From positions 1 through 24,995 of IMG/VR virus record IMGVR_UViG_3300006737_000194: a DNA stretch of 24,995 nucleotides; one strand, 5' to 3'. Positions 1-16,980 of the stretch are shown here, in pieces. A model generated the notes under the pieces. It was not told the origin of the DNA and searched no databases. It saw only the letters and a program-made list of their open reading frames with translations. The DNA comes from a virus. Each line of letters begins with the position of its first letter. Within the stretch, counting starts at the first letter, position 1. A program made the position numbers and the translations under genes.

Positions 1-3000
1 ATAAGTCTTTTACTTCTTCTTGATACTGTACGTCTAAAGCTATTCTTACTCGACCAATAACTTTTTTAGATGCCGCTCTTACAGAAGCATTAGTATGACC
101 TTTAAATACATTTATACCAGACACCATCTGTTTAGATGAAGTTGCTGTTTCTGCATTTTTATCTAATTCTCCTTGTACACCAAAAAATCTTCCATCATAC
201 CCATACAAATCATTACTCTCGTCATAAGAGTATTTGTTAATAAAATTGTTAATAGCGTCTTCTCCTTGTTTAGACAAAGCACCCCACTCTTGTAAACTTA
301 ACATGTTTTGCGAAGTTCCCTCAGCTCCTTTTATAGAGCCTTTTTTAATACCGCTACTTGCGTATCCTAAAACGTTTACACCATTAAGCTTATTTGTTTT
401 GTAAAACTTTTCTCTTGCTTTTAACGATTTATATATAGCTTTAAAAGGACCTTCAGATGTTTCATTAACTACAATAGTGTGCCCTTTTGCATAAAAAGAG
501 TTACGCTGCTGACCGAACATTCCTGATATAGTCTTGTTGTCTATATTAGTTCCATATCCTACAAGCTTAAAAGAACCTTTTACATCTACTATATCACCAT
601 GCAAAGCAATAAGTTTATCAGCTGCCTCTTGCGTCATAACAGAAGCAGAATCCATAATTGCTGGATTGTCTGATAAATTAACTTCTTTTATGACAGCTTT
701 AGGCTTTTTCCTTATAACATTATAAGGATAGTCTTTATCTTTCACCCAAGTTTCTTCGTCAGTTTCATAAGCAAGAACTTTTACTTTTTGCTTAAGGTCT
801 TCCTGACTAAGTTCTGCATCTTCAAAAACCAAAAGCTCTACTCTTTCACCTGCATAACTTGCATCGTGATTTGCTATATAACCAGTAGACCTTTTATTCT
901 TCATTGTATAGTCTTGGTCTTCCATGATAGAAGATGACATATCCTGAAGGTAGTATTTGTTTATAAAGTAGTTTGCACCTATTAAACCAGCATTACCAGC
1001 AACACCTGATTGGCGCATTAGTTTTTCGGTTGATTTTTCTATATCTTCATAGTTAGATAAATCATATGTAACGCCATCAATTTTTAACTCAAAAGCTTTT
1101 TTACCTAATAAATTAAGTTGTCCTTTTTTAGTGTGACCTTCATTATTGGTTTTGTTAATTTCATAGCCTTGCGAGCGTAATTCATTTATTACAGATACAG
1201 AAGTTACAAGATGCATATCAAACTCATCAGACTCATCATTATGTCTATCTATAATAGATTGAGTTTTTACCATGTGGTAATCAACCAAATCTTTGAGTTT
1301 AGACTTTGCTTCTGCTTCAGTTTTAATAGTAAAAGCATCTGAATAATATCGTCTAGTTTTATCAGAAAAATCTCTAACAGGTTGCATGTACATATTTGTA
1401 CCTGAACTAATAGCACTTGCTATTTCTTCTATATCCATTACAGACACCTCTCTGTTAGTTATCTCATCTCTATCAAGGTTATTGTTTATATCACCGTCTA
1501 AAGAATGATAATCTAACTCATACTCACCGCTTGCTATTTTTTCTGCATAAGGATTAGTTATACCATATGTAAACATAGATATAAAACTTTTTGGTTTTTC
1601 CTTATAGTAATCTAACATAGCATCGCGCCCATACTTTAAATAATACTTTCTAATGTTTTTATTAAGCATGTTACCTTTTGGCGACATTATTGTATATAAG
1701 TATGCTTTATTTTCTGCAGGAACTTTTGTGCTTAACAATGCTTTAATTGGGTAAGAAACGCCCTGCATATCTGCAAAGCTAAAGTTTACACTTCCGCCCG
1801 ATATAAATGACTGTAAAGAAGCTTTTTGTTTATACTTATAAATTTTCACTTCTTTGACTTGATGACCTCTAGCAGTTTTAGAAATCTCAAGCTCTTGTAC
1901 ATCATTGTTTTTGTCTCTTAAAAAGAATCTTTTAACCTCTTCGTTAAATTCAGCTGGCGCTCCTTTATCATAGTATGTTTTATATATTGCTTTGTCTGAT
2001 TTAATTACACCGACATCTTTTCTATTTATAACATTATAAGGGTAATCTTTATCCTTTACCCATTGATTTTCATAATCAAATACTAAATGTTCTCTTTTAA
2101 TAGTATTTTCTTTAAACTTATTGTAATCAAATTTTTCTTGCGCGTAAGATGCTTTAATGTTTTCTGCAAATTGTTCTTTTAGTCTAAGAGAAGTTCTATA
2201 ATCTATATTATTGACTACTACGCCAAGATTAGCAGAATCAGATAGATTCTTTTTTACCATCAAGTTATCGAATATAGGATTAAACACATCATTAATAGCT
2301 TCTTTTTGTAAATCTTCTAATGATATATTTTCTTTTTCTTTTTCTGTAATACTAATAGAAACGCTATCCCACAACATACTTTCTAGTTTTGCTCTACTAA
2401 AATATTTTGTTATAGGCATGTAGTTGCCATTTTCATCTTTTATTGTTAAATTATTATATTTTGTTTCGTCTAACGACTCACCTGTCGGAAGTAAGTACTT
2501 ATTTATAAAATCTCTTTTTTCTACTTCTTGTATTGTTTGCTGACCATACAAAAGCTGTACTAATTTTCTAGAATAATTTAATCTTTTTTGCACAGCTGAC
2601 CATACCTCAATATTTTTCTCATCAACGTTTTTTCTGTTGTATAAGTCGCTTTGATATATATTAATAAACTTTATTTTTTCAGGCTTTGACGCACCACGTT
2701 TATAAGCAGCTTCTTCTTCGTAAGAAACCATAACATCTTCTTTTGCTGAAGATATTCTTCTTCTTAATTGCATACTCATAGAAGGACTAAATCTTTTACC
2801 ATCCCACATTAAACCTTTATCAGTAGTCATAGACCTAAACTGTAACATTACATTCTTAAATATATTGTTACCTGAGCCATCTACTTCTGTTTGTAGGTAA
2901 TCAAAAAAGCCTCCAAGTATTATTCTACCTGTCTGTGCTTTACTAGGATTTTCTATTTTAGTACGAGAAAAGCTGATAAACTGTTGAGCCTTTTCAGTAA

Positions 3001-6000
3001 ACTCCATTGGTGTTGGATGTTTTTCTTGAAAAGTTTTAAGCAAATACATTATGTTTGCCTTATTAATTTGAGCTACAACTTCAGGATTTTTATTTCCTAT
3101 ATACTTTTCGTTTTCTATAAACTGTCTTACATGCATGTAAAATTTAGCAGCAATATCTTGGTGTTCACCATTAATTAAAGCTACTAAAGCATTATCATCC
3201 ATTTCAGACATCTCTTCTTCAGTAAACAAATTAAGCTGTAAATCATCTTTTGATACTGCAGCACTCAAGAACATCTGTCTTATGTATGCATCTATCTGCT
3301 TATTGTTATCTCTAAGAGCGTTTCTTACATCTCTATACTCTTGCGTTCCTTCAGTGTAATTAAGCAGTAGATTAGCCTTAAACTTTTCTTTTGCTCTTCT
3401 AAATTCTCTACTAGACATTAACATGGCTTTTTTGTTTGCCATGATTTCTTCACGAGTTGCTTCTTCTAACTGCTCAGCAGTTAATAAATCTTTTTCTATA
3501 GTTTTATAAAACTCTTTTGCATCTTTAACAATAGTTCCTTCTGCGCTAGTAATTTCTTGTTCTATTTGCGACAACAACTTATCGTTTTTAAGTTGTTTGA
3601 TTTTTACTGTAGAAGGAGATTCTTTTGCTAAGTTACCATACTCAGCTTCGTGATTAGCTATTAAATCTTTTATACCATCAAACGCAGCCTCAAAGTCAAA
3701 CTCATCTGTTTTCTTGTATTGATTGTTAGACGCTTGTTCTAATGTCCAATCAGACTCTTCTTTAGTAAATGCTTTAGATATTTTTTCTTTCCAAGAAAGC
3801 ATTGACTTATTGTAAGCTTTACGCTTTTCTTCATCTGCTAAAAACAAATCTTGGTTGTATTCACCATATATACCAGCGAGTTTAGTTAATGCCTCGTCTT
3901 GTATATTAACTTGTTCTTGTGCCGCTAACTCTGTGTAATTGTTTTTATTTAACACATCTAACGACTCTTCATAAAAATCTTGATAAGTTTGTGGAGTTAC
4001 ATTTTCTATAGACTCCATTTCAATATACTCATCTATAGTAGTTGGTATAACTGCACCAGTACGTTTTTTAATTAAGCGTAACGCATCTTCTTGTCTTATG
4101 TAAGCTTTCTCACCTTTTCTTGCTGGAGCTGCGTAAATAATGTTTTCTTGATAATCAAGTTTGGTTTTATTGTATATAGGTTGATTCACTATATGCTTCA
4201 TCATCTCTTGTACCTCTGGATAATTAGCATACAGCACTCTAAATATATGGAAGTTCTCATGGAAGAAAGCTTCGTCTTTAGCGTCTCCATCTGTATTAAT
4301 GAATACACTCATACCTGCAGCATAACCCGCAAACCTTGGCCCTTGTTTTGCAAGAGCAATAATACCATTTACTGACACTAATCCGTCAGCTGCTTTTTCA
4401 GATAATAAATCAATTACTGCATTTTCAGAACCATCAGTTAAAGGTATAGCCTTTCTTATTTTTCTTTTCATGTAGGCTCTTTCCATTACATCTATAATCT
4501 TACCTACATTTTCTTTTGTAAATGTTTTTTTAGTAAAACTTTTTGCAGCATCTTTTGCTAAAACTACAGAAGCTTTAGCTCCTTCTAAAGATTTTAAAAA
4601 TTTAAGTTTGATTTGCTCTGAACTATTAACACTACTTAAGGGTGTTTCTTTAATATATTTCTGTATATCTGATTTTGTTATTCTACCATTTTTTCCTGTA
4701 CCTTTTACTTTTGATAAGTCTATCTTATATTCTTCTGCTAACTCTTGAGCTTTTGAAGTTACTTTAGCTTTATCAACAGGCGGAACTTTTTCTTCTACTT
4801 TTGCCTCTGCTTTAATTATTTGCTCTACCTCTTCTGCAACACCTTGTCGCATTGCTTCTTCTTGTTTTGTAAGACCACGACCATTCATAATCTTATAAGC
4901 AATACGCTCTATTGTTTCTTTCTCTACTACACCTGAATCAACAAACTTATCAAACTCTGATTGTGTTTTTGTTTTGTTAATTTCTTCTGCTTTTTGTAAA
5001 GAGGCATCATCTTTGTTGGTTTCTAAGCTTACCTCACCTGTAGGTGACACAACAATAGCACTAATAGTTCCGTCTTTGTTTTCTTTAACAAACTCTACAG
5101 AACCATCTTTTTGTGTCTTTGCTGGACCATATTTAGCAAACTCTTTACGCCCAACAAACTCAGCAGCTTTATTAGTTCTATCAGCTTGTTGAATTACTTC
5201 TTTAGATTGGTTGTAAAAGTTTTTATTGTTTGCAATTAAGTCTTGTTCTTCTTGCGTAAGCTCTTGACCTTCTACTTCTTTTTGCGCTATATCAACAAGT
5301 TGTTTACCTTCTTCATTAGCAAACCTTTCTTGTTCTACTCGTGAATCAGCTTTTTTATATACCTCTGCTATTTGGTCGCTTGAAGCTTGTTTAATTAATT
5401 CTTCTTGCTTTATTGCTTGCTTTTCAGCTTCTTTTAATCCAGCTATTTCTTTATCAGCCCACGACTGCTCTTGCTTTTCTTCATCTACTAAAGATTGAAC
5501 CTCATCCATTCTTTGCTGAAACTCACCTCTTTGTTTTTGTAGGTTTGCAGTAGTAACATTATTTAACCAAGCGTTAGCTACAAGCTCAGCTTTTTCTTTT
5601 GTATTTAAGTTTTGTGTAGGATAATTTTGTACAGCAGCTTCAACTTGCGTTAAAGTTTCTTGATACATTTCAAATTGTTCTTTACTAATCTTACCTGATT
5701 CTACTTGCGAACCTAAGTATTCCATAATTACTTCAGACTCCCCATGAACAACAGCATTTTGTATCATTGTTCTTGCAGCAGTATCTCTACCTAACATGGT
5801 AGCTTGTTCAGCAGACAGCTCTACTAACTCACCATTTCTGTTTTTAAAGTTATATGTACCTGCGTCTAAATCTCTATTAAATATATCTAAAACTTCATGC
5901 GATTCTGCTTTATCATTTAAAGCTTTATTAATCATGTATCTGTTTTCTGCAGATGTATTAATAGTGTTACTTACACCAGAAATTAATAAGCTTGTAGCAA

Positions 6001-7228
6001 AAGAAAGTACACGAGTAGGTTTTTGTTCATCAGCCATAAAGAACTCCATGTAAGGAGTAAACTCTTCACCTTTTGCTTCCGCAATTCTTCTTTGAACAGA
6101 CCAGTCTTGATACACTTCTTGGAACTGCTCTATAACACCATCTGTTATACCGTTTGCAGCACCCATACCTAACGCTCTAAAACCATTCTTAACTGCAGAA
6201 CCAATACCCATATTTTTAAGAGGAGCCTGCGTTGCTTTTATACCAACCTTAGCAGCTGTACCTTTAATAACCTGTTTAGCTGTTTTAGCTAATGCACCAC
6301 CAACTCTTAACTGACCTGCAAATAAAGCCCACTGAGCAATTTCTGCACCCATAGATGCCAAGTTGTCTACATAAACTTGTCTTGCTGCGTTTTGTGCAAC
6401 CTTTGGGTCTAACCCCTGAAGTACACCTTCATTTAAAGTTTGACCTGCTAATGCAGCTCCTTCTATTAAAGTCTGTGTAGCACCAGCCGCTGTAGCTCCA
6501 ATACCTGCTTTTACAAGTCTCGTAGCATTTAATGTGTTTGCAACACCTTTAGACAAACCAATAGAGCGACCACCCGCTGCAATTCCTTTAGCTATATTAG
6601 CAAATCTAGCACCTTTAGTAAGAACTTGTGCGCCTTTAACTGCAGCCTGACCAGGTATTAATAACGATAAAGCAAACGGTAGCAAACGAGCCACTCCTGT
6701 TTCCCAAAACTCTACATCCGATAAAGAACTAAATTCTATATCTTCTAAGTCTTTTAATCCTGGAACATCATCTCCATAAGATTGTAGGTACTCACCAAAA
6801 TCATGAAATGCATCTGAAACTGGTTTATTCATATCTACACCATAAACTTGCTTTGCCACCATAGATGAAGGTGTTCCCCCTATAAAGTCTACCATATCTC
6901 CTACGGAAGTAAATAAGTCTCCAAAACCAACCATTAAAGATTTACCTATTTTTTCAACGTGTCCCATATCGTAATCAATACCAGGCTTACCTACTTCTGG
7001 TATGTCTGGTATTTGCATTCCCTCTGGTTGAGTAACGTCTGATTGCAAAGGACTCCACATACCATCATCTTTTTGCTGTTCAGGCTGTGGAGTTGTTACT
7101 GGCTCACTAGGTGCAGAAAGACCAGACTGTATGTCTGGTTCTTTAAAACTACTATCTAATGATTGGTCATATTCGTTTATACTTTCCTGTGGCGTGTTAA
7201 CGCTTGGATTCCAAAAATTATCTTCCAT
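1..7228 (-). CDS. Giant multidomain virion protein, putative packaged RNA polymerase (3' end outside window)
   Basis: One open frame starts at the ATG at 7228 and reads through at least 2409 codons to the window edge with no stop, so the C-terminus is missing. Seen in the translation: a Pro/Gln/Ser-rich linker (residues 1-90); an Ala/Gly-rich hydrophobic stretch (about 175-360), as in ejected phage proteins; Gln/Glu/Lys-rich helical sequence (about 450-720); an E3-binding-type domain (821-861); a zincin site HENFH (990-994) with a possible third ligand E1112; and a long region (about 1200-2409) carrying a duplicated WVKDKDYPYNVI. Around residues 2193-2222, DSASVMTQEAADKL followed by FKLVGYG resembles the first double-psi barrel of single-chain RNA polymerases (eukaryotic RDR, YonO, crAss-like). 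The catalytic DxDGD motif is not in the window. The start lies 2 bp after the preceding cargo gene. By analogy with crAss-like phages I infer a virion-packaged RNA polymerase; the polymerase call is moderate, the reading frame is certain. Confidence 0.85.
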   Translation of the reverse strand, partial: MEDNFWNPSVNTPQESINEYDQSLDSSFKEPDIQSGLSAPSEPVTTPQPEQQKDDGMWSPLQSDVTQPEGMQIPDIPEVGKPGIDYDMGHVEKIGKSLMVGFGDLFTSVGDMVDFIGGTPSSMVAKQVYGVDMNKPVSDAFHDFGEYLQSYGDDVPGLKDLEDIEFSSLSDVEFWETGVARLLPFALSLLIPGQAAVKGAQVLTKGARFANIAKGIAAGGRSIGLSKGVANTLNATRLVKAGIGATAAGATQTLIEGAALAGQTLNEGVLQGLDPKVAQNAARQVYVDNLASMGAEIAQWALFAGQLRVGGALAKTAKQVIKGTAAKVGIKATQAPLKNMGIGSAVKNGFRALGMGAANGITDGVIEQFQEVYQDWSVQRRIAEAKGEEFTPYMEFFMADEQKPTRVLSFATSLLISGVSNTINTSAENRYMINKALNDKAESHEVLDIFNRDLDAGTYNFKNRNGELVELSAEQATMLGRDTAARTMIQNAVVHGESEVIMEYLGSQVESGKISKEQFEMYQETLTQVEAAVQNYPTQNLNTKEKAELVANAWLNNVTTANLQKQRGEFQQRMDEVQSLVDEEKQEQSWADKEIAGLKEAEKQAIKQEELIKQASSDQIAEVYKKADSRVEQERFANEEGKQLVDIAQKEVEGQELTQEEQDLIANNKNFYNQSKEVIQQADRTNKAAEFVGRKEFAKYGPAKTQKDGSVEFVKENKDGTISAIVVSPTGEVSLETNKDDASLQKAEEINKTKTQSEFDKFVDSGVVEKETIERIAYKIMNGRGLTKQEEAMRQGVAEEVEQIIKAEAKVEEKVPPVDKAKVTSKAQELAEEYKIDLSKVKGTGKNGRITKSDIQKYIKETPLSSVNSSEQIKLKFLKSLEGAKASVVLAKDAAKSFTKKTFTKENVGKIIDVMERAYMKRKIRKAIPLTDGSENAVIDLLSEKAADGLVSVNGIIALAKQGPRFAGYAAGMSVFINTDGDAKDEAFFHENFHIFRVLYANYPEVQEMMKHIVNQPIYNKTKLDYQENIIYAAPARKGEKAYIRQEDALRLIKKRTGAVIPTTIDEYIEMESIENVTPQTYQDFYEESLDVLNKNNYTELAAQEQVNIQDEALTKLAGIYGEYNQDLFLADEEKRKAYNKSMLSWKEKISKAFTKEESDWTLEQASNNQYKKTDEFDFEAAFDGIKDLIANHEAEYGNLAKESPSTVKIKQLKNDKLLSQIEQEITSAEGTIVKDAKEFYKTIEKDLLTAEQLEEATREEIMANKKAMLMSSREFRRAKEKFKANLLLNYTEGTQEYRDVRNALRDNNKQIDAYIRQMFLSAAVSKDDLQLNLFTEEEMSEMDDNALVALINGEHQDIAAKFYMHVRQFIENEKYIGNKNPEVVAQINKANIMYLLKTFQEKHPTPMEFTEKAQQFISFSRTKIENPSKAQTGRIILGGFFDYLQTEVDGSGNNIFKNVMLQFRSMTTDKGLMWDGKRFSPSMSMQLRRRISSAKEDVMVSYEEEAAYKRGASKPEKIKFINIYQSDLYNRKNVDEKNIEVWSAVQKRLNYSRKLVQLLYGQQTIQEVEKRDFINKYLLPTGESLDETKYNNLTIKDENGNYMPITKYFSRAKLESMLWDSVSISITEKEKENISLEDLQKEAINDVFNPIFDNLMVKKNLSDSANLGVVVNNIDYRTSLRLKEQFAENIKASYAQEKFDYNKFKENTIKREHLVFDYENQWVKDKDYPYNVINRKDVGVIKSDKAIYKTYYDKGAPAEFNEEVKRFFLRDKNNDVQELEISKTARGHQVKEVKIYKYKQKASLQSFISGGSVNFSFADMQGVSYPIKALLSTKVPAENKAYLYTIMSPKGNMLNKNIRKYYLKYGRDAMLDYYKEKPKSFISMFTYGITNPYAEKIASGEYELDYHSLDGDINNNLDRDEITNREVSVMDIEEIASAISSGTNMYMQPVRDFSDKTRRYYSDAFTIKTEAEAKSKLKDLVDYHMVKTQSIIDRHNDESDEFDMHLVTSVSVINELRSQGYEINKTNNEGHTKKGQLNLLGKKAFELKIDGVTYDLSNYEDIEKSTEKLMRQSGVAGNAGLIGANYFINKYYLQDMSSSIMEDQDYTMKNKRSTGYIANHDASYAGERVELLVFEDAELSQEDLKQKVKVLAYETDEETWVKDKDYPYNVIRKKPKAVIKEVNLSDNPAIMDSASVMTQEAADKLIALHGDIVDVKGSFKLVGYGTNIDNKTISGMFGQQRNSFYAKGHTIVVNETSEGPFKAIYKSLKAREKFYKTNKLNGVNVLGYASSGIKKGSIKGAEGTSQNMLSLQEWGALSKQGEDAINNFINKYSYDESNDLYGYDGRFFGVQGELDKNAETATSSKQMVSGINVFKGHTNASVRAASKKVIGRVRIALDVQYQEEVKDL

Positions 7229-7230
7229 AA

Positions 7231-8973
7231 CTAATTGTAAGCTTTTTGTATTTTATCCCTTAATACGTCTACTTTCTTTAAATGTTCTATTGCTTGATTT
7301 CTATCGACACCTTGCGACACCAAACCTTCTAAATATAAATCAAAGAATGATTTAGAGTCGCCTTTAACTAAAGCTTGGTGTATTTGTGGCTGACTGTCTG
7401 CATTAAACATACCAACCAACTGACCCATACCTTGTTCCAAATCACCACTACCTGATGTTAAAGCCATAAGCAAACTTCTTGAAACTATATTACTTGGCTG
7501 TAATCCTAATCTATTCATAGTGGTAGATACTTGAGCGTCATAATTTTGTAGCAATGGCTGTATATCTTCTACACTTGATTCAAAACTTATTGATGGAGCC
7601 GCACCCCTAGGAGCTGTTTCAGCAGGCACATCTTTCGTGTATCTTGCTAAAGCTCCATCTAATCCTTTTTCTTTAGTCAACATAGCCATTTTTGTAGGGT
7701 TTGCTGTGTCAATTTCAATATAATACTTTTCTTTACCTGTAAAGAAATCATCATCTTGATATTCCTGCATTAAAACGTGTTCTGCATCTTTAGGGTCACC
7801 CTCTAAATCATCTGCCATAACAAGTCTGTAACCATCTTCTGTTTTTATCTTATAACCTAAGTATACACCTAAAGGCTGTATGTTACCCATCTCATATCCT
7901 GCTGGTAACATAGCACCATCTTCGTCGTACATGTTTCCATCTGACGTTACATTATCTATATATGTATCGCCATCTAAATCTGGAACATTATTTTTACCAA
8001 ACTGCATTTGTGCAAATATAAGCTCATCACCTTCAAAACCTCTATGACCTACTACATCTGTACCGCTAGGTCCTTGGTTTTGTGTAAACCTACCTGAATC
8101 AAAATCTTTAACAGACATATTGTATTCTTCAGAACCTGACGATATTAAGTCTGTAGATACAGGCTTGCGGTTAATCTTTTTAAATTGTTTTGTTAAACGA
8201 CCTGCATAAGTTTTACTTACTTGGCTTTGTTCTATAGGTGCTAAAGCTTTTTGTTTTCCACCACCTACATATCCAGCAACATAATTTTCTAGCTCTTGGT
8301 CTGATACTTGGTCAAAATAATTAGCAGGTAAATCATATTCAATTAAATAGTTTTGCTTGAATATTCTATAGTTATTATCTGTATTTAAATAAGCTTGAAC
8401 TTTATTTTGAGCGCCTACCATATCTTCTTCAGTTGGCTCTTTCCAGGCTGCCATTTGTTTATGTGTGAACGTATCTATATCACCTTCCATAAACGCATTA
8501 AAATCTCTCCTTGTTTGATTTGATATTAAATATGCGTTTATACCATTCTCACCTTCTAATTGCTCAAAATAAGCCTGTATCTGTTGAGTATTAGAACGTA
8601 TTCTGCTTACTTCATCAGAGTTTACAATATTATTGTAAAAATTCTGCATTACTTTTCTTCCACCAGAATTCATAAATTTAACTGGGTCGTTACCAGCTTT
8701 CTCTAATTCAGCTAAAAACGTTTCTTTTTCTTGGTCATACAAACCCTGCACTATATCTCTATCTTCATTACGAACAGCTATCTCACTTGCTTTAGATTGA
8801 ATCTCTTGCATCCAAGTGTTCATTTCACTTTCTTTCTTTTCTTTATCAGCTTGTATAGCTTGGCTTTGTTGCATTAACTGCATAGCCTGACCAAGTTCTG
8901 CTTGAGCTCTATCTCTTCGTGCTCCCGAACCCACCCAACCTGATAGGGCACTATTTACTTTTGAATAATCCAT
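7231..8973 (-). CDS. Putative internal virion (cargo/ejection) protein
   Basis: A 580-residue protein with no family I can name. Residues 1-100 are rich in Gln, Glu, Lys and Ala and look like a long coiled coil. The middle (about 100-260) is acidic and helical, with a GYVGGGKQK turn near 230. Residues 300-440 are Asp/Gly-rich, with many short beta-type segments (for example DLDGDTYIDN, which resembles a calcium-loop sequence). The C-terminal 130 residues are helical again. There is no signal peptide or membrane segment. It overlaps the upstream lysozyme-domain gene by 1 bp (TAATG) and ends in TAG 2 bp before the giant gene, so the three are probably translationally coupled. Its place between the tail proteins and the giant protein matches the cargo genes of crAss-like phages; the cargo role is inferred from position and composition. 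Confidence 0.8.
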   Translation of the reverse strand: MDYSKVNSALSGWVGSGARRDRAQAELGQAMQLMQQSQAIQADKEKKESEMNTWMQEIQSKASEIAVRNEDRDIVQGLYDQEKETFLAELEKAGNDPVKFMNSGGRKVMQNFYNNIVNSDEVSRIRSNTQQIQAYFEQLEGENGINAYLISNQTRRDFNAFMEGDIDTFTHKQMAAWKEPTEEDMVGAQNKVQAYLNTDNNYRIFKQNYLIEYDLPANYFDQVSDQELENYVAGYVGGGKQKALAPIEQSQVSKTYAGRLTKQFKKINRKPVSTDLISSGSEEYNMSVKDFDSGRFTQNQGPSGTDVVGHRGFEGDELIFAQMQFGKNNVPDLDGDTYIDNVTSDGNMYDEDGAMLPAGYEMGNIQPLGVYLGYKIKTEDGYRLVMADDLEGDPKDAEHVLMQEYQDDDFFTGKEKYYIEIDTANPTKMAMLTKEKGLDGALARYTKDVPAETAPRGAAPSISFESSVEDIQPLLQNYDAQVSTTMNRLGLQPSNIVSRSLLMALTSGSGDLEQGMGQLVGMFNADSQPQIHQALVKGDSKSFFDLYLEGLVSQGVDRNQAIEHLKKVDVLRDKIQKAYN

Positions 8974-11021
8974 TATTCTTTAGTTTTCTTTTTTCTAGAA
9001 TTATTAGATGTAACAGTGTAATCCGTATTTTCTGAATCATACGTATCGTTACCCATATTACCTATAGTTTTTAAGGCATTCGTTGTTGCTTGGTCAATTA
9101 AATCCCTATTAGGGTTTACGTAATAACTTACATCACTTAAAGCGTCAGAAAGTAAATTAGTACCTATGCCACCAAGTAACTCTCTATTTTGAGCCATAGC
9201 TTGTTGTTTCATTTGCTCTGCAGTCATATCTCTATTTAATTGCATTTGACCAACTCGAGTAGCTAAATTATTAAAACCTTCTATATTTTGTCGTCTTACT
9301 GCCGCATCTTGTGCAGCTAATTGATTTAACCCTTGTATTCTATTTGCATCTACAGCACCTTGCCCTGCTAAAAACATACCTCTTTGACCACCAGAAGCTC
9401 TCAATACATTTTTCATGGCACCAGCATATGCATTGTTTAAATTTTGCATAGCAGCACCTTTTTCTTGTGCAGTCAAACCAGTCTTTGATAGCTGTCTTTG
9501 TTTATTTACCGCTTCTTCTATTAATGGAGATAATTCTGGAACATCTACTTCAGGGTCTCTTAAGGCTTTAGATAAAGACGTAATTCCTGCTGCAGCTTTT
9601 AAACCAGTTAAGGCTTTTTCAGCAGCACGCATTCTTTTTTGTTGTTGTAAGTCTGTAAGTCCACCACCACCATTTTCACCATCTTGACCATTTTTACCAT
9701 CTTGACCTTCTTCTTCAGATAAATAAAGTTTATTTAAGTCCTCTAAGCGTTTGTTATGTCTATCTAAAGCAGCTTGTCTATCTTCATCTGTAACACCTTC
9801 TTTTCTAATTCTATCAATTATAGCTTTTTCTTCTGCTAGTTTTTTTGCTATTTCTGCTTTTTCAACTGAATCTTCTGCTTGTTCTTTCTGAACCTCTAAA
9901 GACTCTGCTTCTTCAGTTTTTCCTGTTGTTCCTTCTGGAATTGCAACAACTTCTATTTCACCAGTATTAGGGTCCGTTACAACTTCTGATAAACCTGTAG
10001 CTGCGGCTGATGCATCTTCTAGTGCAGCCACTTCAGCTGCATTTATAATAGATTTATCACCATCGTTTAAAACCACTAAAGCGGCTTCACTTGGGTTTAC
10101 ATCTGGTATACTACCATTATCAGCGTCTTCTATATACTTAAGCTCTTCTATTGTTAATTCAAAAGGCGACGGACCTGTTGTTAAATCATGTTTTGAATTC
10201 TTTTTAGCTTTAAGCTTTAACCTTATAAGTTTATCTTGATTAGACTCACCATCAGGCGCTACATTTAAATCTGTATCAGCATCAGTCAAATCTGTTTCAT
10301 TCTGTCTTTGATTTTGAGCATCAGACTCACCTCTAATTTCTTTTAGAACATTTAAATTACTGGTTGAGTCATTACTAAACTGCATTTGCTTTAATTGCTC
10401 ATTACTATATTGGTCTTCTGGCTCTCTATATAAGTTAAGTCTTTTTAACCAACCTTGACCGTGTTTTGGTACAGTCCCTGAACCCATGTAAGATTTTTCT
10501 CTTCTGTTACTGTAAGCCGTGTTTACAGCCTCAGCACCTTTTTCATCTATAGCTTTATTTAAAGCAGTAATAGCTTTTTTATTGGTACCAAAATCTGTTG
10601 CACCATCTACATCATAACCTAACTCATTTAAAACATCTGCTAATGTATAATGAGTACCTTTACCCCCTAAAGTGTACTCTTGATTAATCATTGCATCGTA
10701 TATGTTCGCTGCAACTCTATCATCTTTTATTTTATCTAAATTGTACGTATTCCAGTATTGGTCTTTAAAAGATTTTTTTACATCATCTTTATTAACTTTT
10801 TCAAACTCTTTTTTTAGTGCGTCAAATTCTTTTTGAGTGGTTGGTTTTGTCTTTTTAGAATAACCAAGCCAATTTATAAATGTTTGACCATATCTTGTGG
10901 CAACAAAATTGTTTTTACCAGCTACTTCATAAAAATTACCCGTGTCACCTCTATCTGTAGAGATTTCACCTTCGTTTCCTTCGCTTAATTTATAAGCTTT
11001 ATCCCATGATGTTTCAGCCAT
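8973..11021 (-). CDS. Virion protein with N-terminal GH108-like lysozyme domain
   Basis: A 682-residue protein. The N-terminal ~170 residues resemble the GH108 (zliS-type) N-acetylmuramidase family: W6-D-K-A-Y, then NEGE with E17 in the place of the catalytic Glu of the EGG motif, D23-R-G-D-T-G as the D..G..T stretch, RYGQTF where the family has GIT, and later RVAANIYDAMINQE and a final R-R-x-x-Y-M-G. Residues 240-430 are acidic and helical. A short collagen-like tract GQDGKNGQDGENGGGG (439-454) follows. The last 230 residues are an Ala/Gln/Asn-rich helical region like those of ejected internal virion proteins. The likely role is local peptidoglycan degradation during DNA entry rather than host lysis, because the domain is fused to a structural part and sits among tail genes. 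It starts 2 bp after the previous gene's TAG stop. The catalytic E17 assignment is by motif, not proven. Confidence 0.8.
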   Translation of the reverse strand: MAETSWDKAYKLSEGNEGEISTDRGDTGNFYEVAGKNNFVATRYGQTFINWLGYSKKTKPTTQKEFDALKKEFEKVNKDDVKKSFKDQYWNTYNLDKIKDDRVAANIYDAMINQEYTLGGKGTHYTLADVLNELGYDVDGATDFGTNKKAITALNKAIDEKGAEAVNTAYSNRREKSYMGSGTVPKHGQGWLKRLNLYREPEDQYSNEQLKQMQFSNDSTSNLNVLKEIRGESDAQNQRQNETDLTDADTDLNVAPDGESNQDKLIRLKLKAKKNSKHDLTTGPSPFELTIEELKYIEDADNGSIPDVNPSEAALVVLNDGDKSIINAAEVAALEDASAAATGLSEVVTDPNTGEIEVVAIPEGTTGKTEEAESLEVQKEQAEDSVEKAEIAKKLAEEKAIIDRIRKEGVTDEDRQAALDRHNKRLEDLNKLYLSEEEGQDGKNGQDGENGGGGLTDLQQQKRMRAAEKALTGLKAAAGITSLSKALRDPEVDVPELSPLIEEAVNKQRQLSKTGLTAQEKGAAMQNLNNAYAGAMKNVLRASGGQRGMFLAGQGAVDANRIQGLNQLAAQDAAVRRQNIEGFNNLATRVGQMQLNRDMTAEQMKQQAMAQNRELLGGIGTNLLSDALSDVSYYVNPNRDLIDQATTNALKTIGNMGNDTYDSENTDYTVTSNNSRKKKTKE
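9660..9707 (-). other. Collagen-like Gly-X-Y linker in the lysozyme-domain protein
   Basis: Residues 439-454 of the 682-residue protein read GQDGKNGQDGENGGGG, about five Gly-X-Y triplets with one repeated unit (GQDG). It separates the acidic helical middle from the Ala/Gln-rich C-terminal part. It is too short for a stable collagen triple helix alone; a flexible hinge or a short trimerising segment are both possible. Confidence 0.6.
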
Positions 11022-11023
11022 AA

Positions 11024-12196
11024 CTATTTATGTTTCCAAGTTTTCATTTCTCTATTAACAAACTCTCCAACCTCATCAAATCTACCGCCTCTTAATAGCT
11101 TTTTAATATTATCCATTGCTGGTTTATCAAACACACCTTCACCACCTGTTAGCTCCATACCTGTATGGTTACCATTTTTATCTACTACAGCCAAAGGGTT
11201 AGTTGTGTGATTATATGCGCCTTGTGTCATACCACCAACACTATATTGTCTAACACTTCCATCTTTTGTGTGAAAGTCTACTTTCTTTAAACCTTCTTCA
11301 TCTAAATCCCATTTTTTCATAAACCATTTTTTCATATCAGCACCTCTACGAGAATAATCTATACCAATATTAGTTTGGTCTTGTCGTGCTGATATATTAG
11401 GCGTATAATTATATGATTCTATTTTTTTTATAGCAGCCTGTAAAACTTCAGGCTTCATTTTTTCTTTTGGTTTTTGCATGCTTGGTGGTAAACTTCCATA
11501 TTTATTAATAAGACTATCTTGATAGTTTTCACCATACATATCTATAAAATGATTTTTAGCTTCATTGTCTCTAAAATCTTTTACAGCATCATTAACTGAA
11601 TCACGTATTGTACTATCTAGTTTATCTTGAGGAGAAGTTATTTTACCACCATCTTTGTACCCAGCATAATCTTCCGATTTAATTTTTTGAAACTCACTTA
11701 AGTTTTCTTCTCGCTCTGCCTTTTGTTCAGCCTTCTTTTTTTCTTTTTGATATTTTTTCTTTTTAACAATACCAACCCCTAATCCTACAGCTGTTCCAAT
11801 AGCAGCACCGACAGGTCCAGCTTGAGCACCCATAGCTGTGTACTTAAGGGTTTCTTGAGCAATATCTGCGTTTCCATATCCAGGGTCTTTATCAAAAGCT
11901 CCTATAAGTTGACTTGCAGCACCTGCACCCATACTTGTAATACTACCCATTGCTTCGTTTTCCCAACTTGTTCCTTTTCTTAAAGTTGACATGTCATCTC
12001 TTGTAGGAGCTACAGAATTAGGGTCATTAGGGTCATACTCTTTCATCATATCTGCGTAGTTGCCCTGAAAAAAAGTTGGGTCTTCTCCTAGTGCAGAGAA
12101 AATACCACCATCAACATATTTTTTAGTTACACCTCCACCAAAGTATAACTCGTTAGCTAAAGCTTTTTCTTGCTCTAAAGTTAAATTTTTAATCAT
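11024..12196 (-). CDS. Putative internal virion / ejection protein with Gly/Ala-rich hydrophobic segment
   Basis: A 390-residue protein. Around residues 125-150 there is a Gly/Ala-rich hydrophobic segment (GAQAGPVGAAIGTAVGLGVG) followed directly by a run of basic residues (KKKKYQKEKKKAEQKAERE). That is a membrane-insertion-like pattern common in phage ejection proteins. The motifs YKDGGKI and ELTGGEGVFDKPAMDNI near the C-terminus are of a kind I associate with Bacteroidota phage virion proteins, but I cannot give a verified family. Its ATG overlaps the stop of the upstream 1595-residue tail gene by 4 bp (ATGA), implying translational coupling, and it ends in TAG. Its location after the tail gene and before the lysozyme and polymerase genes suggests it is carried in the virion and enters the cell with the DNA. 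That function is inference. Confidence 0.75.
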   Translation of the reverse strand: MIKNLTLEQEKALANELYFGGGVTKKYVDGGIFSALGEDPTFFQGNYADMMKEYDPNDPNSVAPTRDDMSTLRKGTSWENEAMGSITSMGAGAASQLIGAFDKDPGYGNADIAQETLKYTAMGAQAGPVGAAIGTAVGLGVGIVKKKKYQKEKKKAEQKAEREENLSEFQKIKSEDYAGYKDGGKITSPQDKLDSTIRDSVNDAVKDFRDNEAKNHFIDMYGENYQDSLINKYGSLPPSMQKPKEKMKPEVLQAAIKKIESYNYTPNISARQDQTNIGIDYSRRGADMKKWFMKKWDLDEEGLKKVDFHTKDGSVRQYSVGGMTQGAYNHTTNPLAVVDKNGNHTGMELTGGEGVFDKPAMDNIKKLLRGGRFDEVGEFVNREMKTWKHK

Positions 12197-15100
12197 GTTG
12201 TAATTCTATTATGTATTAAAGCACCAAATAACTCTATTTTACCTGAATCACTACTTTGAATTGAAATACTTAAATGCTGACCAGTAGCTTTACCCGTTCC
12301 GTCTGTACTTGTTATTGGTATTATGTGCTTTCCATTTACCATTTTTTCTCCTGTTCCTGTCGAAATTATAGCAGTATTGCTTACTGAATCTCTGAAGATA
12401 AAATTAGTGAATTTTTTTGAGTTTTCATTTCCAGATAAATACAACACTAATTTATCAAAATGCTTTGATTGATATATGTTTTCATTACATACAAATGTTA
12501 AATTTATTGAGTGATTATTTTCACTTCCATAAAACATTTTAAAATTAGAATTACTATTTTCTTGATATATTTTAGAAGCATCAATTGTATTTGCACCAGC
12601 ACTTCTTCCAACAGTATATAATTCTCCTGGTAAATTAAAAGCTAAAGCTATTGGGTCTTGTTTTTGCGTAACCATTATATCGTTTAACTCACTGTAAACT
12701 AAATGTAATGAGCCAAAGAAATTATTCTGGGTTGTTACACATAAACCTACTTCATCTAAAATTTTATTATAATATAAGCAAACACCGCCTTTTGAGTAAT
12801 CCAAAGGACTATCAAATACTGGTGCGCTTTTTAATTGATGTAATAAAACTGAATTTTGTGTAGTTAAACCTAAGTCTTGAACAAGTATACCTTGACCATA
12901 AGATAGCTTGCAAAAAGCAGACATGTTTTTATCAAACCAATAAGCTGCTGTATTTGTAACTATTGTGTTATTAAAGTGTTGACTACCGTATGTTGTATCT
13001 ATATAGTCGCTTCTTTCAATTACTTGACCAGTACCTGTAGCAATCATTACTGCGGCTGCATCAGTATTATCAACAACCACCCTCGGGTTAATAGTTAATT
13101 TAGCAACACCAGATTGCTGTAGTGCAAATAAATCACCTCTTAAATTAAATAAATTATATATTGGACCTTTACCAGTTTCTAATTCATGTATCTCACTTGC
13201 GTCCCATGTAGTATAAGCGTCAAAAAGATTTCCTGCTAATTTTAAATTAGAAGCAGCAATTAAATTACTATAAGTATTTACATCCTTAAAGTTTGCTGGT
13301 TTTTGAACATAAGTTTTAGAAGTGTTTTGGCATCCATAAGTTTCATTTATAAGATTGTCATCATATATAGTATATTCCATATCATCAGATGAACCTAAAA
13401 AAACTCCATCTCGAAGGTCTAAATTTATAGAAGATTCAACTGGGTATACAATACCCATAGCAGGATATGCAGCAGTACCAGAACCGCTACCACTTGAGTG
13501 TGCTACTTTCTTTTTAGCATACATATTTATAAACGTATCACCACCAAAAACAGAATCAAAATTTGAGCTTTGTGGGTTAAAGTTTACATGGCCTGTGTTT
13601 ATATATTGATTATTTTCAAAAGCAGCTTCTGAATTACCACCGTATTGACTACCCTCTACATTCCTTACAAATTGAACATACAACTTTTGAGCATAAAGTT
13701 TTAGATTAGGACTGTTACCATCAAAATTAAGTATAAAAGGATTTTCTAATTCACTTCCAGTACCACACTCAAAGTCTTCTGGTAATAAATCTGCAGCACT
13801 TTCGTTAGCTGTACCCTCTAATGATAAAAACATAGTTGGAGCACCCCAAAGATTATTGTGATGACCTGCACCATCACCAACATCCCATTTCTCATCTGAA
13901 GGTGTGTCGCTTGCATATCTTAATTGGTCATCACCACCATTCCAAGCAAGCCTGATTTTATTTTTAAAATTTTTATGTATAGAACCAGAATAACTTCTAT
14001 CTCTACGAGAATTTCTTAAATCACTAACTGTCCCTCCTTCTGCTACGGTTTCTGCGTGATATATAGGAAATACTTTATTAGAAGTTGCTACATCTCTAAC
14101 GCAATAAGTACTTTGAAAATATTGACTATATATTGGATATGTAGAAAATTGAAAAGTCTCTTTGTTATCCGTAGCCGCATTTGGGTCAAATCTTCCTGCT
14201 AAAAAATAAGGTTGATTAGTAGTAGTCCCATTATAATGAGCGTATTGTTTTATGTTATTTAAAGGATGAGAGTCATTTGGGTCTATATTTTCAAATTCTA
14301 CGAAATCTTCATTATAATGAGAATAAGTACCATCTAACCTTGCAACTACTTTTATTTTATCACCAGTCCTTTTATTATAAACAAATTTACCAAAATATGG
14401 TTCAGGAGTGTCACAAGTAAAATTTGTGACATGAAAAGATTGGTGTGATTGAAATGGAGTAAAATTAGTTACACTAGAAGGTCCGTTCAGATGCCTCATA
14501 GAACCTGATGAGGAATTATTTGCATGAATCTGGTTTTGATTTATTACACCACTTGCTAAAATTCTTTTATCGTTTTCACCCCTTTTAACTCTAACAATAG
14601 CATACCCACTTATTTTACTTCTAACATCTTCAGATAATTTAACATGAAATTGAGGATATATTGCATATCCAGAAACAGAACTTAATGGTTTATCAAAAAA
14701 TAAAGTCATTCCTGCGCCAGGACTACCAGCAGTTGTATTTTGAGAAATTGTAATAGTGTTCGCAGTAACAGTAGTTATATACGAGCCTTTTGGTATTCCG
14801 CTAGTATCAATAGACCCTGTTACCAATTCACCAACAACATGGAGGTTTCCCTCACCTGTTTTGGTTAAAACATTACTTCCACTTGAATAAGTCCATCCAG
14901 AGCTTATTCCTGGAGTAGAACCACAATATTGAAAAGTTTTTACTCCATCTGAATTTGTTACTATTCTGGTACCTGACGAATTATGACTTTCAAATTTCAT
15001 TTCATTGTCAGGCATTCGAACATCACCTATTGGACTAACAAATGTTGGGTTACCTGATTTATCATAAAACAAAATACCAAAACGATATACTTCACCTCTT

Positions 15101-16980
15101 TGGTATCCTACATAATCTTTTGCAAAAATTGGATTTTTATAATTATTATATCCACCATTAAATGTTTTATCTAAATACCCATAAAGAGGAACATCATTAA
15201 GTGCACTATGCGCTTTGTCATTATTGCTTCCAGTTCTTGCACACCTTCCATTTCTAAAGTAATCAACTTCAGATAAATCAAGTTCTTTAACATTAAATGT
15301 TACTCTAACTCCATTATCTATATTTTCAAAATCTGGTGTTTCAGCGCCAGGAACTTTTGTTTGGTGAGTTGTATTTATCCAAGCATATTGATTTTGTTCA
15401 TAAAAACTATCTTTATACAAGTCTTCATTTATATAATTATCATATGTTTCTGCTGAGCCGAATCCGTCGGTTCCAAATCTGTAAGATTTAACTCTAAAAT
15501 CTACATCTATACTTTGTGCATTATTTGTTAAATTAGAAGCAAATAATCTGTTATTTTTAATAGCTAAATCTTTACAAGTATCCCAACTAACATTATTTCT
15601 TAATAAATCTCCTATAGATATACCAACAGTAGTTTCGTTACCATTATGAGTGTATGTAAAAGACGAACCCGATATAGAAGCTTCTGTTATTATATTAGCC
15701 TCTATAGCTCCTTCAGAAGAAGTGTATCTTATATTTATAACCTGAATAGAAGTATAAGACTCGTCTATGTTATTTATAGTTAAAGTAACTGAATTTGCTG
15801 AATTTTCCGATAAAGGTCCTCCAGTTAATTTATGATATTCAGTATCTAATGTTGTTTTTGCTACATGTACAGGATTAGTTATCTGTGAAGTTCTAGATGT
15901 TTTACCATCTTGTGTAATTAACCTATAACAATACGAATGAGAGCCACACAAAACTATACCACCAGGAATTACTGAATTAACAATAGGGGCTTTTAATTCT
16001 GCAGATTTAAAAACATTTAAGTCCTCTGCAGTAATACCTACATAATATCCTGGGTCCTCTTTAAGGTTTATTGTTCTTAATGGATTAACACCGTCCGTCC
16101 AATATATTCTATGAAAATGTTCATTTTCTTCTGAAACCTCTATTCTCAATGAAGTTTTTGACGACAAACCTAAATCAGTTTGTAATATTACTTCTTGAGT
16201 AAACAGCTGACCATTTTCTAATGGTGTAATTTTCCAAATAATATCTTGCTCTCCTGATGTAGTAGATTTTGCTATAACAGCAACATAGTCTGAAAAATTA
16301 GCTACCCCAACAACTTCTTGAGTTAAAGATGATAAAATTTGTGACGACTTACCGTTACCATCTGTTAATGATATGAACTGTGGGTTATCCTCGGTTAACA
16401 TATATTGAATCTCAAAACCGAGAGTCATTGATACGTTTGTTTTGTTTATATGTGTAATATTAATACCATTATCAGTAACCGCAAAACTTACACCAAGAGT
16501 TAATTTTTCTGCTACTTCTGGAATATCCATAGCCTTTGCACAAGCTAAGTACAAATAATTTTTATAATGAGCACCCATACTCAAAACAAAGTTATTGTAA
16601 CCTACATTAGAATTTGTCGCAGAATCAAAACCTATATGTACAACTTGTGTTGTAAAACCAGTTCCTGATATTGTTAATCTAGCCCCCATAATAGCAGACT
16701 GACTATAACCTACAACGTTTCCATCCAAATCTTCAGTTGTTTGTATAGTGGAATTTGCTGTTAAACTTGTTATGTTGATAAGATGTCTAGAGCAACTAAA
16801 TTCTAAAGTCGTAAATTCAGTATTACCTTGTGCATTTTTTAAAACAAAGGCATTGTCTTCTCTTGTAAATATTCTACCGTTTGTTAAAAGTTTATATGCG
16901 TCATTTGGTAATAAATTATTATCCAAATCAGACTGCATACCTTTTATAAAATTATTGGGTTTTTTAGCTGGTTTCGACAT
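12193..16980 (-). CDS. Large tail protein, P22 gp10-like 'stabilization' / crAss muzzle type
   Basis: A 1595-residue, beta-rich, Gly/Asn/Ser/Thr-rich protein. The N-terminus (NNFIKGMQSDLDNNLLPNDA, then YKLLTNGRIFT) is the pattern seen at the start of the large tail proteins called tail stabilization protein (P22 gp10-like) in crAss-like phages and muzzle in the crAss001 virion structure. Its size, by far the largest tail gene, and its place directly after the tail tubular gene fit that role: it would form the distal part of the short tail. Residues about 705-763 look like a separate small beta module (finding listed). There are no enzyme motifs, signal peptide or membrane segment. It starts 3 bp after the stop of the tail tubular gene and ends in TGA overlapping the next start. 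Confidence is good for a tail structural role, lower for the exact family. Confidence 0.8.
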   Translation of the reverse strand: MSKPAKKPNNFIKGMQSDLDNNLLPNDAYKLLTNGRIFTREDNAFVLKNAQGNTEFTTLEFSCSRHLINITSLTANSTIQTTEDLDGNVVGYSQSAIMGARLTISGTGFTTQVVHIGFDSATNSNVGYNNFVLSMGAHYKNYLYLACAKAMDIPEVAEKLTLGVSFAVTDNGINITHINKTNVSMTLGFEIQYMLTEDNPQFISLTDGNGKSSQILSSLTQEVVGVANFSDYVAVIAKSTTSGEQDIIWKITPLENGQLFTQEVILQTDLGLSSKTSLRIEVSEENEHFHRIYWTDGVNPLRTINLKEDPGYYVGITAEDLNVFKSAELKAPIVNSVIPGGIVLCGSHSYCYRLITQDGKTSRTSQITNPVHVAKTTLDTEYHKLTGGPLSENSANSVTLTINNIDESYTSIQVINIRYTSSEGAIEANIITEASISGSSFTYTHNGNETTVGISIGDLLRNNVSWDTCKDLAIKNNRLFASNLTNNAQSIDVDFRVKSYRFGTDGFGSAETYDNYINEDLYKDSFYEQNQYAWINTTHQTKVPGAETPDFENIDNGVRVTFNVKELDLSEVDYFRNGRCARTGSNNDKAHSALNDVPLYGYLDKTFNGGYNNYKNPIFAKDYVGYQRGEVYRFGILFYDKSGNPTFVSPIGDVRMPDNEMKFESHNSSGTRIVTNSDGVKTFQYCGSTPGISSGWTYSSGSNVLTKTGEGNLHVVGELVTGSIDTSGIPKGSYITTVTANTITISQNTTAGSPGAGMTLFFDKPLSSVSGYAIYPQFHVKLSEDVRSKISGYAIVRVKRGENDKRILASGVINQNQIHANNSSSGSMRHLNGPSSVTNFTPFQSHQSFHVTNFTCDTPEPYFGKFVYNKRTGDKIKVVARLDGTYSHYNEDFVEFENIDPNDSHPLNNIKQYAHYNGTTTNQPYFLAGRFDPNAATDNKETFQFSTYPIYSQYFQSTYCVRDVATSNKVFPIYHAETVAEGGTVSDLRNSRRDRSYSGSIHKNFKNKIRLAWNGGDDQLRYASDTPSDEKWDVGDGAGHHNNLWGAPTMFLSLEGTANESAADLLPEDFECGTGSELENPFILNFDGNSPNLKLYAQKLYVQFVRNVEGSQYGGNSEAAFENNQYINTGHVNFNPQSSNFDSVFGGDTFINMYAKKKVAHSSGSGSGTAAYPAMGIVYPVESSINLDLRDGVFLGSSDDMEYTIYDDNLINETYGCQNTSKTYVQKPANFKDVNTYSNLIAASNLKLAGNLFDAYTTWDASEIHELETGKGPIYNLFNLRGDLFALQQSGVAKLTINPRVVVDNTDAAAVMIATGTGQVIERSDYIDTTYGSQHFNNTIVTNTAAYWFDKNMSAFCKLSYGQGILVQDLGLTTQNSVLLHQLKSAPVFDSPLDYSKGGVCLYYNKILDEVGLCVTTQNNFFGSLHLVYSELNDIMVTQKQDPIALAFNLPGELYTVGRSAGANTIDASKIYQENSNSNFKMFYGSENNHSINLTFVCNENIYQSKHFDKLVLYLSGNENSKKFTNFIFRDSVSNTAIISTGTGEKMVNGKHIIPITSTDGTGKATGQHLSISIQSSDSGKIELFGALIHNRITT

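Follow-up and report, generated by a model that had tools for sequence, protein, structure and literature searches.

An ejected virion RNA polymerase (vRNAP) transcribes the early genes of crAss-like phages (PMC10136315), and the literature describes giant vRNAP fusions as a hallmark of the group (PMC10136315, PMC10770324). Mass spectrometry has detected the crAss001 proteins gp47, gp49 and gp50 in virions, and their extrusion is proposed to occur in a partly unfolded state (PMC10172136). The annotation of phi14:2 gp65-gp67 derives from virion proteomics. The polymerases among them, phi14:2 gp66 (6VR4) and crAss001 gp50, are two-barrel single-chain enzymes in which a lysine motif precedes a DxDxD motif, and their genes follow those of the muzzle and cargo proteins. 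The giant proteins of Suoliviridae, such as Culoivirus cr1_1 gp076 (4,551 aa), and of Flavobacterium phage FpV4 (4,287 aa) unite an N-terminal part and the polymerase in one chain, and their genes again follow muzzle and cargo.

The window analysed here is an entire IMG/VR record, a viral metagenome fragment of 24,995 b. Its virion genes lie on the minus strand in the order portal, scaffold-like gene, capsid, head/ring genes, muzzle, three cargo-type genes and a giant frame (Table 1). This is the gene order of the Crassvirales virion module. Two ring proteins match CrAss_Ring_1 and CrAss_Ring_2. The TerL gene lies outside the window, and the assignment to Crassvirales was made from portal, capsid, muzzle and rings. 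Judged by the relatedness of its portal, capsid and tail proteins to the signature proteins of the order, the phage is crAss-like. No host was assigned because none of the 46 pattern matches obtained by searching GTDB genomes with the RNAP alignment was a relative.

Table 1. Features of the window, with residue numbers of the giant chain where applicable.
Feature	Position (nt)	Strand	Basis or remark
Giant chain, probable vRNAP ejection protein, 2,409 codons	2..7228	minus	3' end cut by contig end
Two-barrel RNA polymerase, N-terminal part, residues ~1847-2409	2..1690	minus	VIA-align to 6VR4, hhalign
Lysine motif SGIKKG, residues 2292-2297	338..355	minus	region of first double-psi beta-barrel
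Putative zincin part, residues 984-1134	3827..4279	minus	HENFH + invariant QDE
Peripheral-subunit-binding (E3-binding-type) domain, residues 820-866	4631..4771	minus	Pfam, PDB profile, AF2 + Foldseek, VIA
N-terminal, putative ejection part, residues 94-316	6281..6949	minus	homologous to phi14:2 gp67; includes conserved hydrophobic helix
Conserved hydrophobic segment VARLLPFALSLLIPGQAAV, residues 179-197	6638..6694	minus	Kyte-Doolittle 1.55 over 19 residues
Cargo-type gene, 580 aa, directly before giant gene	7231..8973	minus	position + length only
682-aa gene, GH108-type lysozyme-like N-terminus	8973..11021	minus	Pfam E 7.8e-6, above cut-off
Cargo-1-like gene, 390 aa (crAss001 gp45 family)	11024..12196	minus	hhalign
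crAss muzzle protein	12193..16980	minus	Pfam crAss_MUZ, E 1.7e-117
Major capsid protein	21519-20041	minus	crAss-like, E 4e-16
Portal	24874-22619	minus	crAss-like, ~30% identity over 98%

The left third of the window is, as first described, a single frame of at least 2,409 codons. It runs from an ATG at 7228 to nt 2 with zero stops, and the contig ends before the frame does. In shuffled versions of the window (n=20), stop-to-stop runs reached at most 142 codons. Further family members were found in other assemblies by alignment-based and genome searches. The frame is likewise unbroken in ten relatives, whose identity ranges from 80% to 35%. In the nearest (L002, ~80% identical) the chain reaches 3,446 aa and is then cut by the contig end; the complete chains measure 4,048, 4,062, 4,173/4,174, 4,424, 4,627 and 4,701 aa (449-527 kDa). 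Neither the chain nor its RNAP core had a tblastn match in 50,697 phage records, and the giant chain had no match above chance in PHROGs. PF02817 was the only Pfam domain in the window chain at E up to 1, and E3_binding was the only clear Pfam family among seven members.

A HMMER search of PDB sequences with the chain profile matched E2 binding domains only and missed 6VR4, so profile-profile and fold comparison were needed. Comparison of the whole alignment with single gp66 or gp65 sequences by hhalign was uninformative; tblastn detects no pairwise similarity between gp66/gp50 and the window chain. Family profiles on both sides were informative. Overlapping pieces of the family profile were set against the three large Steigviridae proteins associated with the vRNAP and against the Suoliviridae giant proteins, and this piecewise comparison gave three strong, collinear matches, to gp67, gp66/gp50 and gp65/gp49.

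The N-terminus matches phi14:2 gp67 with an hhalign probability of 91-93% (93% for family-profile residues 63-370), which falls to 52% in a broader comparison with several Crassvirales families. This part contains an invariant TGVARxxPFALSL block, and its hydrophobic segment has an aligned counterpart in gp67. The Ala/Gly-rich region noted earlier was recovered as a weakly hydrophobic stretch at residues ~178-365, with 29-35% A+G in the 201-400 blocks.

The polymerase-like part is homologous to phi14:2 gp66, as the preliminary description had suspected. A profile of 10 relatives aligned with one of 8 crAss-like RNAPs at 95.9% (hhalign, E 5.4e-9), with DLDGD placed on the catalytic DFDID and column-shuffled controls at <=0.3%. 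Among overlapping family-profile pieces, which were not hand-picked, residues 2301-2465 matched the gp66/gp50 barrel region at 88%. An AlphaFold model of L002 residues 1790-2960, of modest confidence (mean pLDDT 54), has 6VR4 as its best solved match (VIA Z 15.1, 686 residues), with other multi-subunit-type RNA polymerases ranking next; Foldseek alone returned no match to this model with E below 0.001. The window contributes about the first half of the region matched to 6VR4. It includes the first polymerase barrel and ends before DxDGD. The lysine-type motif lies 269-437 residues before DxDxD in the family and in other crAss-like phages. The aspartate motif, at 2566 in L002 numbering and ~150 residues beyond the point where the window chain breaks off, reads ADLDGD or SDLDGD in 10/10 relatives that reach the position. 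Since the window ends before the catalytic aspartates and the C-terminal part, we infer both from the relatives, the nearest of which is ~80% identical.

This C-terminal part, a third of the chain beyond the contig, was missed in the preliminary description, whose list of an N-terminal part, an E3-type domain, HExxH and a polymerase otherwise stands. It matches the gp65/gp49 family at 97.6% (E 2.9e-12; shuffled <=0.2%), and family-profile residues 3802-4159 match at 93-95% in the piecewise comparison. The gp65/gp49 profile comprised phi14:2, crAss001, cr128_1, cr1_1, cr118_1, cr52_1, cr4_1 and cr7_1. Homology covers the last ~340 residues of the complete chains. In phi14:2 and crAss001 the homologue is a separate protein, and its N-terminal half, including the HExxH of gp65, is not recognisable in the chain of the window's family.

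In the annotated crAss-like records that show a gp65/gp49 gene, this module is divided between two or three genes. Three Steigviridae records have three separate genes. In FpV4, and in the Suoliviridae records that show both genes, the giant gene is followed by a separate gene of ~1,570-2,000 aa, either of gp65/gp49 type or large and in the same position, and the motif of their polymerase is not DLDGD. A gp65-type gene stands apart in ProJPt-Bp1 as well. The separate gene was profile-tested as a gp65/gp49 relative in FpV4, ProJPt-Bp1 and cr53_1, and assigned by position and size in cr131_1 and cr273_1; the linear record of cr10_1 (Suoliviridae) ends after the giant gene, leaving any second gene outside it. 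The full three-part fusion was not found in the other crAss-like phages sampled. Uniqueness is provisional because Intestiviridae, Crevaviridae and the zeta group lie outside this sample. It is well supported that the window's family has the most completely fused crAss-like vRNAP among those examined. The novelty first attached to a giant vRNAP fusion was overstated, as such fusions had already been described and most of the gut crAss-like phages examined also have a HExxH before the polymerase. What looks new is the union of three vRNAP-module proteins in one chain, the docking domain and the DLDGD site.

We consider it very probable that the chain is an ejected crAss-like vRNAP whose N-terminal, polymerase and gp65-like parts work as one machine. 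The original idea of a single giant ejected polymerase is thus upheld by homology, with ejection itself deduced from the described systems. Several copies of the chain would be stored in the capsid. When the muzzle opens, the chain would be threaded through the tail unfolded, probably N-terminus first, and its Ala/Gly-rich and hydrophobic N-terminal part could help to form, or dock to, an inner-membrane channel. The two-barrel polymerase would refold in the cytoplasm and, with its own chain tethering it to the entry pore, transcribe early genes during DNA entry; the gp65-like C-terminus would remain attached as an accessory part. The E3-binding-type domain may be the module to which a partner protein docks, and the HExxH part may act as an envelope or target protease or as a processing activity. 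Threading and refolding are modelled on crAss001 (PMC10172136) and the N4 vRNAP (PMC12633501).

The HExxH motif is HENFH at residues 990-994 (nt 4247-4261). It is invariant in ten aligned sequences and present in all eleven members, bearing out the site read from the window alone. The surrounding part has a predicted helical core (model confidence ~90), and a QDE at 1110-1112 lies in the second helix, with the invariant DE at 1111-1112 as candidate third ligand. Foldseek and VIA searches with residues 795-1240 returned no zincin match; the E3-binding domain dominated the list, so the missing match is not evidence of absence. Family-profile residues 913-971 align collinearly and weakly (17% probability) with the HEAFH region of crAss001 gp47. 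A HExxH precedes the polymerase in most gut crAss-like phages examined, the Suoliviridae giant proteins included. There, HEAFH or a similar motif lies ~1,430-1,880 residues before DxDxD, or near the gp47 end; the distance in the window's family is ~1,450-1,660 residues. Going by these positions, Crassvirales may generally have a HExxH before the polymerase, and it is not special to the giant chain since other crAss-like phages have one too.

The motif raises the question of whether the chain is a self-cleaving polyprotein, cut by its HExxH part after entry or during assembly into equivalents of gp67, gp66 and gp65. The invariance of the site fits such a role, as does its position near the Steigviridae gene split, crAss001 gp47 ending ~180 residues after HEAFH. 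Steigviridae make the three parts as separate polypeptides, which are therefore able to work uncoupled. Yet no cleavage site or product was seen, and neither Foldseek nor VIA found a zincin fold. Moreover, crAss001 gp47 keeps its HExxH although the genes are already split, so the motif cannot serve to separate the parts there, which makes it less likely that the HExxH part exists mainly to cleave the fusion. We regard self-cleavage, which the preliminary description had raised as one possibility, as unlikely, and a chain acting as one machine as the better reading.

The E3-subunit-binding-type domain proposed from the sequence was confirmed by Pfam (PF02817 at residues 828-856, E 9.8e-11, 42.1 bits against a cut-off of 23.7). 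Its AlphaFold model superposes on solved E3-binding-type domains at ~1 A (Foldseek rmsd 1.0 to 4qoy_E; VIA Z 7.3). It shares this fold, and 30-49% identity over ~40 residues, with the peripheral-subunit-binding domain of E2 proteins, but the phage copy lacks a recognisable adjacent lipoyl or acyltransferase domain. The linker that holds the domain, with the N-terminal part on one side and the HExxH part on the other, is the least conserved one. Pfam detects the domain in 4/7 members, divergent copies are readable in L075 and L077/L078, and it is cleanly missing in three family members. On a fully supported tree, its presence and absence require at least two changes. Because it occurs in both halves of the tree, it looks ancestral to the lineage and lost twice. 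Pfam does not find it in phi14:2 gp67, crAss001 gp47 or cr1_1 gp076, and our literature search found no paper in which a phage protein is described as having an E3-binding-type domain. Such a domain would ordinarily be expected to dock to a protein of the phage or of the host. A bolder proposal, in which an all-in-one early-transcription machine docks to a host dehydrogenase component (E1 or E3), seems to us improbable. If true, central metabolism would serve as an anchor for the ejected polymerase, or be disturbed by it, at the moment when infection takes place.

Polyvalent phage proteins are typically giant, with a HExxH and a small adaptor domain. The chain shares these traits, and the preliminary description had named this class as the alternative. 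On this reading the chain would be a loose string of injected effector domains with an inactive polymerase-like part. Conservation of both the catalytic DLDGD and the lysine motif speaks against inactivity. No Pfam domain of the class was found, and collinear homology to three vRNAP proteins together with synteny identifies a virion RNAP module, leaving the polyvalent reading very improbable. Related phages have two or three genes at the same place, which might suggest that a misassembly or frameshift has merged separate genes into the long frame. This is scarcely credible because seven complete chains from other metagenome assemblies (six clearly distinct; 4,048-4,701 aa) run unbroken from the N-terminus to the gp65-like end at identities down to 35%.

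The window chain also carries a 12-residue insert, WVKDKDYPYNVI, in two in-frame copies (window positions 2027-2062 and 713-748, minus strand; residues 1723-1734 and 2161-2172). The copies share 32/36 bases, and neither site carries the insert in the nearest relative or in any other member. A search of the viral collection for exact back-translated matches found none. The insert has the look of a short mobile or copied element of recent origin.

Among the products of the genes beside the giant frame, the 390-aa protein matches the Suoliviridae gp074 family at 91% and the gp45 family at 57% (hhalign). The 682-aa product is, from its Pfam match, probably a cell-wall-cutting cargo; the N-terminal sequence of its L002 counterpart appears different, as if the wall-cutting domain had been swapped. 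The 580-aa gene has the position and size of crAss cargo protein 2 (gp46 / cr1_1 gp075), with an insignificant profile match to it (2.8%). A DLDGD string also occurs in this protein at about residue 334 (VPDLDGDTYIDN), which looks like a loop of another kind and no polymerase site. Downstream of the giant gene (L041 15646-23087 and equivalents) lie genes of ~180, 240 and 1,085-1,190 aa, then two more, in an order conserved across the family and with no Pfam match. A displaced gp65 among them was considered and rejected, as four tested genes showed no gp65 similarity.

Volume estimates for crAss001 leave room for ~6 copies of each large RNAP-associated protein (PMC10172136). The literature we found does not settle whether these three crAss-like virion proteins form one complex. 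The fusion is comparative evidence that argues directly for a 1:1:1 assembly, because one lineage has all three as one chain. It also offers a single protein for studying ejection, refolding and tethered transcription, and the DLDGD site and added docking domain are natural variants for testing which parts of the machine are needed.

The N4 vRNAP is a T7-type polymerase. N4 gp50 and the tail-tape-fused vRNAP of P23-45 are also giant ejected or virion chains that combine a polymerase with other domains (PMC12633501, PMC10770324). The P23-45 polymerase, unlike that of the window chain, forms the N-terminal part of a tail tape protein. The polymerases of Steigviridae are encoded by a gene of their own and carry DFDID or DFDVD, whereas the window's family carries DLDGD.
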